From: Caballeronia turbans
GTDB lineage: Bacteria; Pseudomonadota; Gammaproteobacteria; Burkholderiales; Burkholderiaceae
Reading direction: 5' to 3'
Assembly (NCBI GenBank): GCA_001544655.2
Contig: FCOD02000003.1
Location: 372,001-436,000, forward strand
Length of the DNA stretch: 64,000 nucleotides
Below are positions 52,460-55,520 of the stretch, piece after piece; the stretch's first letter is position 1; each line of letters begins with the position of its first letter. The position numbers and the translations under genes were made by a program. Under the pieces are notes generated by a model, which was given only the letters and a program-made list of their open reading frames with translations, searched no databases and was not told the DNA's origin.

Positions 52460-54112
52460 TCAGGCTTCTACGGCTTCGTCCTGCCGCACATTCTCTGCGA
52501 CGCGCCCGGAGCGGTTCACTGCGCTCACGACCGCATCGGCGACTGCGAGCGCCGGATTCGCATGTACGGCGACGCCGAAGCGCGTCTGGCCCTCGCCGAC
52601 GCGGCAGCCGACGAACGCCGCCGTGTCGCCGCTCGCCGTCACGGCCGTCTCGAACCAGTTCACGTTCGCGTCCACGCCGAGCGCTGCGGCGACCGTCTGC
52701 GCGTAGGCATCGCCGCTCATCGTGCTCGCCGGCGGTGCAACCGTGACGCGCTTTCCGAACACCGACAACGTCGATACATCGACCCGCGAAACCGGCCCGC
52801 CGGCATCGAAATATTCGCGCTTGAAGAGCTCGCAGATCGCGTCGCCGCCGATTTCGGCGCCGGATGCATCGGTGATCTGCTGCACGGCGTGGCTGAACTC
52901 GATCTGCACGCGGCGCGGCGGCGTGAAGCCGAGCCCGCGTTCGAGCAGAAAAGTCGAGCCGCCCTTGCCGGACTGGCTGTTCACGCGAATCACGGCATCG
53001 TAGCTGCGGCCGAGATCGGCGGGATCGATCGGCAAATAGGGCACTTCCCACATCGTGCCTGGCACGCGCTGCGCGAGACCCTTGCGGATCGCGTCCTGAT
53101 GCGAACCCGAAAATGCGGTGAACACGAGGTCGCCCGCATACGGATGACGCGGATGCACCGGAATCTGGTTGCAGCGCTCGACGACGCGGCGCACGGCGTC
53201 GATATCGGAGAAATCGAGCCCCGGGTCGATGCCCTGCGTGTAGAGATTCATCGCGAGCGTGACGAGATCGACATTGCCGGTGCGCTCGCCATTGCCGAAA
53301 AGACATCCTTCGATGCGGTCCGCGCCCGCGAGCACCGCCATTTCCGCCGCGGCGACCGCCGTGCCGCGATCGTTATGCGGATGCACTGACAGCACGATGC
53401 TGTCGCGAAAGCCCATGTTGCGGTCCATCCACTCGACCTGATCGGCGAACACGTTGGGCATCGCGGCTTCGACCGTCGCGGGCAGGTTCACGATCATCTT
53501 GTGATCGGGCGTCGGACGCCACATTTGCGCGACCGCGTCGCACACTTCCCGCGCGAACGGCAACTCCGTCATGCTGAAGGTCTCGGGCGAGTATTGATAG
53601 ATCCAGTGCGTTTGAGGCCGCGCGGCCGCGCATTCCTTGATGAGGCGCGTGCCTTCGACGGCGAGCGCCTTCACTTCGTCCTTCGACTGATTGAACACGA
53701 TCTTGCGGAACGACGGCGCGATCGCGTTATAGAGATGCACGATCACCTTGCTCGCGCCCTCGACCGCTTCGAACGTGCGCTCGATCAGCTCGCGGCGCGA
53801 CTGCACGAGCACTTCGATGGTCACGTCATCCGGAATGCGCTTTTCGTCGATCAACTTGCGCACGAAATCGAAATCGGTCTGCGACGCCGACGGGAATCCC
53901 ACCTCGATTTCCTTGAACCCGATTTTCACCAGCATCTCGAAGAACTCGAGCTTCGCAGCAATGCTCATCGGTTCGATGAGCGACTGGTTGCCATCGCGCA
54001 GATCGGTGCTCATCCAGATGGGCGCCTTCTCGATCGTGCGGGTCGGCCAGCGACGGCCATTCAGACGGACTTGCGGAAACGGGCGGTATTTCTCGGCGGG
54101 GTTCGGCATCAT
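52460..54112 (-). CDS. leuA: 2-isopropylmalate synthase (LeuA, long form)
   Basis: First committed step of leucine synthesis, condensing acetyl-CoA with 2-ketoisovalerate. The 550-residue protein has the catalytic barrel with [53 protein letters not shown] and [18 protein letters not shown], and a C-terminal LeuA dimer/regulatory domain that normally binds leucine. The start follows 300 bases of untranslated leader that begins with the leucine-rich leader peptide at 54494, so control by leucine supply at both RNA and enzyme level is likely. Confidence 0.96.
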
Positions 54113-54400
54113 GATCGTCGATCTCTCTTCGGACAGTTTGCGTAGCGCCTGCGAGAGAGGCCGTGTCCGGCGGCTGGCCGGGCGTGGCGGGATGCACGTG
54201 AGACGGAGCGGCGCGCGCGTGTCCCGGAATCACCAGCGACGGTGACGCCTGTGACCAACGTGAACGTGCGCGGAGCAACGTGCATTTGACCCTCGCGTTT
54301 CCGTTTCGCGGGATGCGCGAACGAAAAGCTGACGACTACAGGTGGTAAGAAAAGGAACTACTGGGACTTCTGGCAGGACCGGGCGCCTTGCGACGCGCGG

Positions 54401-54433
54401 CGCTACATCTGGCGACTTACGCTAGACGTAGCG
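54401..54433 (-). promoter_or_regulatory. Hairpin overlapping the end of the leucine leader peptide
   Basis: On the minus strand CGCTACGTCTAGCG (54433-54420) can pair with CGCCAGATGTAGCG (54414-54401) over the loop TAAGT: 12 Watson-Crick pairs, one G-U, one mismatch. The left arm contains the last two CTA leucine codons and the loop contains the leader stop. A ribosome stalled on these codons would prevent pairing. I could not find a downstream intrinsic terminator with a clear U run. Confidence 0.65.
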
Positions 54434-54494
54434 ATAGGGGCCGCGCTAGGCGGCCCGGAATAATTCGGAGGGAGGCGGGCTGGGTGAAACTCAT
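54417..54494 (-). CDS. leuL: Leucine leader peptide upstream of leuA (25 residues)
   Basis: ATG at 54494-54492, stop TAA at 54419-54417. The peptide starts MSFTQPASLRIIPGR and ends LARPLSLRLA; its last four leucines (codons 16, 20, 22 and 24) are all CTA, a very rare codon in this high-GC genome. This is the design of attenuation leaders such as E. coli leuL. No ribosome site precedes it; the predicted promoter puts the transcript start at or within about five bases of the ATG, so it may be translated from a leaderless end. Function inferred from composition and position. Confidence 0.78.
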   Translation of the reverse strand: MSFTQPASLRIIPGRLARPLSLRLA

Positions 54495-54501
54495 GTAGTC
54501 G

Positions 54502-54531
54502 ACTTTAAACCACCGTTGAATAGCGTGTCAA
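54502..54531 (-). promoter_or_regulatory. Promoter of leuL-leuA
   Basis: A perfect -35 TTGACA (54531-54526) overlaps the stop codon of ybiB. With 16-18 bases of spacer the -10 is TTTAAA (preceded by TG) or TAAAGT around 54509-54502. Transcription would begin between about 54499 and 54494, at the leader ATG. Confidence 0.65.
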
Positions 54532-55520
54532 ATGGGATTTGCCTGACCGACAGCTGGTTTACGCACCACATTGGCAATCACTTCGACCTGGCGCGTGACC
54601 GCGGGCGGCACCGGCACGTCGCCGCGCAGCACGCATTCGATCCACCGCGCGGTGGTCGCTGCGTCGAGGGTGTCGGGCAGGTCGACCGGAGGCGTGTGCG
54701 GCTGAGAGTGCTCGGGCGTGATCAGCGTCTCGACGTGGCCGTCGTGGAACCAGTCGACCTGCACCTGGCGGCGCGTGTCCGCGACGGCTTCGCCTTCGGT
54801 GCCGCGCGCGAGCAGTGCGCCGCCCGCCGCCGCGTCCGGGTGCTCGGTGAAAAGTCCGGTGAGGCTCTCGCGATACTCGGGATGCGTGTAGTTGACGAGC
54901 CTCAGGCCCGGCTCGGCGAAGGGCTGAAGGATCTTCACGAGCGTGTGCGTCGAATTGCGCACGCCCATGCGGCGTCTCAGCGCCAGCAGCCGCGCGAGCT
55001 TGGGCGCGAGCACGGCGATCGGCGCGAATGCGAGACGGCGCGACGCGAGGCTGTCTTCGATTTCATCGTGTGAAGCCGCGTGCGCGATACCCAGTTCGGC
55101 GAAAATCGCGGCGCTCGTGACGCGGCCCGGATCGTCGGTGACACCGTGCACCAGCACCGGCACGCCTTCGCGCGCAAGCAAGAGCGACAACAGCGGCACG
55201 AGATTCGGCGTCTTGCGTGCGCCGTTGTAGCTCGGAATCGACACGGGCCGCGCGTGCTCTCGTCCATCCTGGACATGCAGCGGCTCGAACGAGCGATGCG
55301 CGGCGGATAGCATGGCGGCGAGCTCGGCGGCAGTTTCGCCCTTGACGCGATAGGCGAGCAGTACCGCGCCGAGTTCGAGTTCAGAGACGCGATCCTCGAG
55401 TATCGCTTCGTAGAGCGCATAGGTGTCGTCGTGCGAGAGGGCGCGCGCGCCGTTCGGCCCGCGGCCGATTTCCTTGATATAACGCGCGCAGTTGAAAGCG
55501 GGGGGAGCGGAGTCGGTCAT
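54528..55520 (-). CDS. ybiB: DNA-binding protein YbiB (TrpD2 family)
   Basis: 330 residues resembling anthranilate phosphoribosyltransferase: N-terminal helices (ARALSHDDTYALYEAILEDRVSELELGAVLLAYRVKGET-type) and LVPLLSLLLAREGVPVLVHG, LGIAHAASHDEIEDSL, LALRRRMGVRNSTHTLVKIL and VNYTHPEYRESLTGLF. YbiB/TrpD2 proteins lack the PRPP motifs of TrpD and bind DNA instead; E. coli ybiB is linked to the SOS response. It ends inside the promoter of the leucine leader, so it may read through into leuA. Confidence 0.87.
   Translation of the reverse strand: MTDSAPPAFNCARYIKEIGRGPNGARALSHDDTYALYEAILEDRVSELELGAVLLAYRVKGETAAELAAMLSAAHRSFEPLHVQDGREHARPVSIPSYNGARKTPNLVPLLSLLLAREGVPVLVHGVTDDPGRVTSAAIFAELGIAHAASHDEIEDSLASRRLAFAPIAVLAPKLARLLALRRRMGVRNSTHTLVKILQPFAEPGLRLVNYTHPEYRESLTGLFTEHPDAAAGGALLARGTEGEAVADTRRQVQVDWFHDGHVETLITPEHSQPHTPPVDLPDTLDAATTARWIECVLRGDVPVPPAVTRQVEVIANVVRKPAVGQANPI

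Follow-up and report, generated by a model that had tools for sequence, protein, structure and literature searches.

The window, by which we mean the whole 64,000-nt stretch of Caballeronia turbans DNA that was analysed, carries on its minus strand, in this order, the gene ybiB (55520–54528), a promoter, a short leader open reading frame (ORF; 54494–54417), 304 nt, and the gene leuA (54112–52460). Family models identify leuA (52460..54112, minus strand) as a 2-isopropylmalate synthase of the long (yeast-type) form (leuA_yeast TIGR00970, 705.4 bits against a cut-off of 697.4), and ybiB matches YbiB NF006005 with 457.8 bits against a cut-off of 185. The leader ORF (54417..54494, minus strand), found among the ORF calls and conserved in relatives, comprises 25 codons and a stop codon, encodes MSFTQPASLRIIPGRLARPLSLRLA*, and is predicted to be leaderless. 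It sits, as the preliminary description had placed it, between a TTGACA-type promoter and leuA. The −35 hexamer TTGACA (54526..54531) and the −10 hexamer TAAAGT (54502..54507), both on the minus strand, are separated by an 18-nt spacer, and the −10 box, which ends at 54502, is followed by the leader ATG after 7 nt. This is the only promoter-like site detected on either strand of 54000–55000, where shuffled sequences average 0.1.

The last four leucines of the peptide, at codons 16, 20, 22 and 24, are all encoded by CTA (54449–54447, 54437–54435, 54431–54429 and 54425–54423, minus strand; stretch 54423..54449), and the sole earlier leucine, at codon 9, by CTC. The earlier remark that CTA is scarce elsewhere agrees with the counts in the flanking genes, where it accounts for 0/31 leucine codons in leuA and 1/37 in ybiB. 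A scan of 53500–55500 against Rfam, up to an E-value of 5, gave no match for any known RNA family.

Conservation of the leader ORF and its promoter

leuA was detected in 116 of 150 family genomes and in 55 named loci; together with further fetched stretches these yielded 142 loci whose upstream region was available, three of them copies of the window. The leader motif occurs in 101 of the 142 and is missing from 41; 18 of the 101 are identical over the compared region, which leaves 83 distinct regions, whose mutual relationship means that the counts given below do not represent independent events. In 83/83 TTGACA is present, followed after a spacer fixed at 18 nt by TAnnnT. The gap between the −10 box and the ATG is 6 nt in 35 regions, 7 nt in 46 and 9 nt in two, and because the ATG thus lies 6–7 nt behind the −10 box in 81 of 83, a leaderless start is predicted. 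The absence of a ribosome site before the leader ATG, claimed from the window, extends to the relatives: a Shine-Dalgarno-like site (an anti-SD duplex at least as stable as −4 kcal) precedes only 4/83 leaders, versus 75/83 leuA genes and 54/54 of the second ORFs described below. From this comparison of sequences, a putative leaderless leucine leader before leuA is well supported.

Within the last ten codons 334 of 340 leucine codons are CTA, against 0 of 109 earlier ones, and at the last four leucine positions CTA is found in 78, 83, 83 and 82 of the 83 regions. The peptide end is highly conserved and reads mostly GRLAR[PS]LSLRLA. Of the 150 family genomes, 49 contain the pattern CTATCGCTACGNCTAGC, each of them once (reversed control pattern, 0), and 48 of these 49 matches lie within about 360 nt upstream of a leuA match; the remaining one (G017:C1), inside a long unrelated ORF that has no leader features, was rejected as a leader and taken as chance. 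A search for plasmid copies of the leader found none. Conservation in related genomes had been set as one test of the leader, and both the ORF and its CTA codons are conserved, together with the promoter and the short gap, in the 83 distinct regions. Judged by these comparisons, the leader ORF with its CTA codons and promoter is not due to chance.

Three further leader codons, CTC CGA ATT (LRI, 54470–54462), also show high conservation at the DNA level in the alignment of the 83 regions, and a 7-mer scan of these regions found no pairing partner for them. CGA and ATT are uncommon codon choices in high-GC genes.

Conserved helices in the leader transcript

Six helices, A to F, were derived from the alignment of the 83 regions and from consensus folds, and were assessed by a swap test, in which two arms taken from one sequence are compared in pairing energy with arms swapped between sequences (5000 swaps, ignoring the tree; counts are those of swaps that did as well). 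All coordinates refer to the minus strand. Hairpins A and B overlap the CTA codon run. Hairpin A (54438..54456), GGGCCGC-CTAGC-GCGGCCC, has the first CTA in its loop (0/5000 swaps; 510/548 cells paired), and hairpin B (54401..54433), CGCTACGTCTAGCG-TAAGT-CGCCAGATGTAGCG, covers the end of the ORF with the stop codon TAA in its loop (0/5000; 780/829 cells paired). Counting by eye, together with folding, gave 12 Watson-Crick pairs, one G-U pair and one A-C mismatch for B, so that the 14-position hairpin of the preliminary description was correct. The second CTA lies between A and B. Since the first (CTA1, 78/83) and the second (CTA2, 83/83) are both outside the stems, it is the codon itself that is kept, and pairing does not explain it. 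Hairpin C (54376..54401; 0/5000 swaps), GCCGCGCG...GCGCCCGGTCC, has no U run behind it.

The remaining helices lie closer to leuA. Helix E joins the 5′ arm GTAGTCGTC (54331..54339) to the 3′ arm GGCGCTAC (54142..54149), 29 nt before the leuA ATG; it encloses hairpin D (54298..54327; 0/5000) and helix F, whose 5′ arm GCGAG (54292..54296) overlaps the ribosome site of the second ORF and pairs with CTCGC (54151..54155; 0/5000, 383/415 cells paired). Among the regions E pairs GTAGTCGTC with GACGCTAC, GACGAC, CGACTT or ACGACA, and F pairs GCGAG or GCGAA with CTCGC or TTCGC. Helix E gave 4/5000, or 44/5000 with shorter arms, and its inner four pairs are formed in 263/332 cells. Five other arm pairs used as controls or candidate switches gave 895–3948/5000, and the crossed arms of E and F gave 120/5000 (E5:F3) and 4998/5000 (F5:E3); in view of the former value, the short-arm version of E is only moderately better than a control. 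Pairs that occur in more than one Watson-Crick type number three in A, two in B, two in F and one in E. Together, D, E and F are predicted to form a domain resembling a three-way junction, which ends 16–40 nt (median 20) before the leuA ATG. Run at a 60% threshold, the 7-mer scan recovered only A, B, C and an A-right:C-left pairing; as D, E and F escaped it, its negative results elsewhere carry little weight.

A C-rich stretch and a second ORF before leuA

A scan of 54000–55000 detected no intrinsic-terminator-like site (shuffles, 0.7). Among 110 loci no conserved intrinsic terminator was found, only 19 scattered, non-homologous matches, in a scan that allowed no bulges and missed the terminators of loci L131 and L134 described below. 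Within this scope, the earlier statement that no intrinsic terminator with a U run precedes leuA holds for the window and, as regards a conserved one, for the relatives.

Between hairpin C and helix E lies a C/U-rich, G-poor stretch (54341..54376, minus strand; 13 C, 5 G, 11 T and 7 A), a candidate Rho-binding site. In 82 regions (one of the 83 has no E box in the searched range) the mean counts in the 60 nt before the E box are 23.4 for C and 11.0 for G; the C count reaches twice that of G or more in 54/82 and 1.5 times or more in 75/82, against 0.95% and 7.5%, respectively, of all 60-nt segments on both strands of the window, a control that represents all such segments and not other 5′ leaders. 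The corresponding 60 nt of the window itself contain 21 C and 14 G, a ratio of only 1.5; the 36-nt core with its 13 C and 5 G fits better. The stretch is mostly unpaired in the folds (mean 0.575), and its sequence and length vary. By its composition it looks like a Rho-binding site, more clearly in the relatives than in the window. It often contains repeated GCAGTTCC-like units, in the window (54341–54376) and in relatives, with a mean of 2.2 GYNGT per 60 nt (range 0–4).

A second upstream ORF of 58 codons (54109..54285, minus strand) has a Shine-Dalgarno site and shares an ATGA overlap with the leuA start; its product in the window has no Pfam match. An ATG led by a Shine-Dalgarno site is found behind the 5′ arm of F in 54/83 regions. 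From there the frame is open to the leuA start in 54/54, versus 29 and 18 for the other two frames, and the ORF overlaps the leuA start in 53/54, that of L065 ending 11 nt short. At L004 and L079 it continues in the leuA frame. At least one of the 29 regions in which the motif defines no second ORF, L097, has the same start without the motif, and its ORF ends 86 nt before leuA.

Search for a structural switch

When the leader was blocked in folds of the 83 regions up to CTA2, CTA4 or the stop codon, the predicted accessibility of the leuA start changed from 0.404 to 0.394–0.403 and the unpaired fraction of the C-rich stretch from 0.575 to 0.543–0.550 (0.403 and 0.543, respectively, with the stall at CTA4). 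The folding therefore yields no switch for the clade and no account of induction. The sole alternative pairing available in at least 60% of the regions, A-right:C-left, is possible in 62/83, yet own arms show no excess over swapped ones (1851/5000), and it was rejected. For a textbook 1:2/2:3/3:4 switch the CTA codons lie too near, and B-right:E3 (3948/5000), B-left:E5 (2216), B-right:C-right (895) and A-left:B-right (3627) did no better than swapped arms.

Pairing between the leader and the leuA start was likewise rejected. In the actinobacterial LEU element, as far as the available part of its description goes, the leucine codon run pairs with the leuA Shine-Dalgarno sequence in a pseudoknot (PMC1262725). 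The equivalent stem has here an energy of −10.16 kcal for own arms, −10.32 for swapped arms and −12.89 for a shuffled leuA arm. For the leader end and the leuA start, 3915/5000 swaps were as good, and the 7-mer scan, which also misses D, E and F, found no such pairing. In a consensus of 24 Caballeronia-type regions with the ribosome placed at CTA2, ten pairs join the freed region of the leader stop (GCGUA.G.CGCC) to the 3′ arm of E; with the ribosome at CTA4 this pairing does not form. This modelled pairing would be a clade-specific lead and not an explanation. Folds, swap tests and the 7-mer scan found no structural step common to the clade that would link a stall to Rho.

Leucine-rich leaders in other genera and families

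Of the 41 family loci without the leader motif, 39 were scanned (L101 and L109 were omitted as repeats of L070 and L074) for an ORF starting 3–12 nt behind a promoter-like site. Thirteen have a leucine-rich ORF 6–7 nt behind such a site, with −10 boxes that are poor in some. Twelve of them encode other peptides (L070, L074, L110, L111, L122, L123, L125, L126, L127, L128, L131 and L134), and the thirteenth, L136, encodes the usual leader peptide, which the motif had missed. By eye, L119, L129 and L140 may share the layout with weak −10 boxes. In 23/39, including the whole group L112–L118, L120, L121 and L139, the scan detected neither a leucine-rich ORF nor a leader remnant at such a distance.

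In other families of the order, 14 of 36 leuA regions have such an ORF, counted if it contains at least four leucines in ten codons, 5–9 nt behind a promoter-like site (6–7 nt in 9/14), versus 7 of 720 Markov controls; the same scan found none in 22/36. In the last 18 codons of these 14 candidates only 17 of 98 leucine codons are CTA, which makes the CTA preference a feature of the family and not of the order. The peptides differ widely between genera; the leucine codons and the position before leuA stay. The near-zero gap before the ATG thus extends to more distant loci than peptide, codon or structure do, though not everywhere.

Some of these loci differ from the window in what follows the leader. 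At L131 and L134, from small genomes, a leaderless-type leucine leader is followed by CCTCGGC...GCCGAGG with a T run, by eye a plain intrinsic terminator, unlike in the clade of the window, and this ties a leaderless-type leader to transcription attenuation. At L116 and L120 (genus g3), where the scan found no leaderless promoter, the leader end CTTCCTCGC and GCGAGGAAG, which lies at the leuA ribosome site, can form 9–10 bp, an arrangement known from the LEU element. L070, L074 and L110 have tandem leucine leaders, the first of the leaderless type and the second, downstream of it, ending in LPLPIG or LALPIG, and by eye a stem GTTCGCCTC:GAGGCGAAC lies over the leuA ribosome site. At L126, L128, L159 and L160 a second leucine-rich ORF (for instance MPTSILLSLRLL... 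or MLRLHSLLLRLR...) extends across the leuA start.

A model for the control of leuA

The leader probably acts as a leucine-sensing attenuator of leuA, in which a leaderless leader and a stall at CTA codons are combined with what is most likely a Rho-dependent readout. Transcription would begin at or beside the leader ATG, and the leader peptide would be translated from the leaderless 5′ end. With too little charged tRNA-Leu for the rare CTA codon, the ribosome would stall on the CTA run, in and between A and B, and when leucine is plentiful it would reach the stop codon inside B and leave. The stall would set the amount of full-length leuA mRNA, most likely through Rho, which would terminate transcription within the C/U-rich stretch and the structured domain that follows. 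The conserved ORF, its CTA codons, the promoter geometry, the lack of a ribosome site, helices A to F and the C-rich composition are read from the sequence; the leaderless start, the stalling, the leucine response and the part of Rho are what we infer. The weak point of this model is the link between stall and readout, and a stalled ribosome would not reach the C-rich stretch. The preliminary description had pointed to Rho-dependent or translational attenuation. This is backed only in part: the C-rich, G-poor stretch fits Rho in most relatives and less so in the window, and no ribosome-controlled switch was found that would serve the whole clade. Rho-dependent attenuation is our first choice, because a C-rich stretch is present and an intrinsic terminator absent, and translational control is our second.

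In the latter case the leader, the E/D/F domain and the second ORF would together set the translation of leuA, and a stalled ribosome would refold the domain or alter how ribosomes enter the second ORF. Own arms fit better than swapped ones in both E and F, and E ends a median of 20 nt before the leuA ATG, where the Caballeronia-type fold of 24 regions would open it with a ribosome at CTA2; against this, the rearrangement is absent at CTA4 and shows no co-variation across the clade (B-right:E3, 3948/5000). The second ORF, with its Shine-Dalgarno site and a frame open to the leuA start in 54/54, would suit such a role, but 29/83 regions have none by the motif used. Relatives offer suggestive variants in the leader of L116 and L120, which can pair with the leuA ribosome site, and in the sequestering stem seen there by eye at L070, L074 and L110, and Streptomyces LeuL1, in the available part of its description, also has no terminator (PMC8079986). 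In the 83 regions, by contrast, the leader end fits the leuA start no better than swapped ends do (3915/5000), and blocking the leader leaves the predicted accessibility of the leuA start unchanged. On balance we consider translational control unlikely, if worth keeping in mind.

Classical transcription attenuation, with an intrinsic terminator that the consensus scans missed (for instance hairpin C without a U run), is highly improbable. A-left, A-right, C-left and C-right can pair as 1:2, 2:3 and 3:4 in 57, 62 and 57 of the 83 regions, and the relatives L131 and L134 have a true terminator. Hairpin C of the window is followed by TGCCAGAAG and not by U, however, and 54000–55000 holds no terminator-like site, nor do the 110 loci share one. 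With a ribosome footprint of the generally quoted size, moreover, A-right would lie under a ribosome positioned at CTA1 or CTA2, and 2:3 should not form on stalling. Least likely of all is an action mainly in trans of the leader RNA or peptide, like that of rnTrpL and peTrpL of Sinorhizobium, to which the control of leuA would be secondary. The highly conserved peptide end in the 83 regions, a C/U-rich tail that could pair with ribosome sites and the leaderless trpL precedent, as known from part of the source (PMC7298713), would be compatible with it; the wide differences between the peptides of other genera, in which leucine codons and the position before leuA stay, and the variable sequence and length of the C/U-rich stretch argue against it.

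Comparison with known leaders

The customary picture of a leader peptide includes a ribosome site and an intrinsic terminator. The leuL of E. coli and Salmonella, whose leucine leader peptide contains rare CTA codons and precedes leuA, has both, and neither was found here. The loci described above present a highly conserved leader seemingly with neither, in several betaproteobacterial genera, and with downstream readouts that differ in relatives. Canestrari is said to have described in 2020 leaderless polycysteine leader ORFs of mycobacteria; such cys leaders are amino-acid-rich and terminator-less like the leader analysed here, with cysteine in place of leucine. For cys leaders with no terminator, Rho was suspected and pyrimidine motifs were not conserved (Seliverstov 2005), whereas here a C-rich composition recurs in most relatives.

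E. coli leuL, named as the precedent in the preliminary description, remains one for a leucine leader with rare CTA codons, but LeuL1 of Streptomyces lividans is closer: in the portion of its description available, it is a leaderless leucine-rich leader before leuA with no typical Rho-independent terminator (PMC8079986). Leaderless, terminator-less leuA leaders are thus already known in Streptomyces. As in LeuL1 and the LEU element, so far as their sources are accessible, a short leucine-rich leader precedes leuA here without a Rho-independent terminator (PMC8079986, PMC1262725). Unlike in the LEU element, the leader lies 304 nt from leuA in the window and the Shine-Dalgarno pairing is absent; helices A to F, the C-rich stretch and the second ORF are found instead. 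LeuL of Campylobacter jejuni is a 28-residue leader with five C-terminal rare leucine codons before leuABCD; the accessible parts of its descriptions do not call it leaderless, and its RNA ends shortly behind the stop codon (PMC3847290, PMC11955535). Corynebacterium glutamicum and C. diphtheriae have leuA leaders with four consecutive leucines, according to the available passages, in peptides that are much shorter, and the C. diphtheriae leader could not be given a start site (PMC4046766, PMC5784534). The trpL of Sinorhizobium meliloti, in the part of the source available, provides a leaderless leader peptide in a proteobacterium, as predicted here, but it senses through tryptophan codons and ends in a transcription terminator (PMC7298713). 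No description of this leader in Burkholderiales was found in the literature searched, though the 2004 comparison of proteobacterial attenuators (Vitreschak and others) may cover it in part, and no mention of leuA, a leader peptide or leucine was found in the available main text of PMC4603805.

We tentatively consider it possible that many Burkholderiales have a leaderless, terminator-less leucine attenuator before the long-form leuA, composed of a leaderless leader, a Rho-loading linker, a three-way-junction domain near the leuA ribosome site and often a second ORF that overlaps leuA and is leucine-rich in some genera, with peptide, codon, structures and mode of termination exchanged between genera and the leaderless start kept. 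Direct initiation at the 5′ end would, if this is true, be a component of the sensor that is under selection. The loci form a natural series for asking why amino acid sensors keep leaderless starts (fast loading of the first ribosome, coupling to the polymerase) and in what way a terminator is replaced by Rho or translation, and they supply constructs with which leaderless initiation in a proteobacterium can readily be tested.

Loci with a degenerate or missing leader

A few leuA loci deviate from this layout. The record of C. jiangsuensis MP-1 includes a second leuA locus (L075, contig 28), either a true paralogue or contamination, that has no detectable leader. In three genomes of leaf-nodule symbionts (L081, L082 and L085) and on one Caballeronia contig (L086) the leader ORF is frameshifted or was not found. 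Among these, L081, L082 and L086, which belong to the 39 scanned loci, keep the promoter in front of a degenerate ORF, and at L081 and L082 remnants of the CTA end persist.
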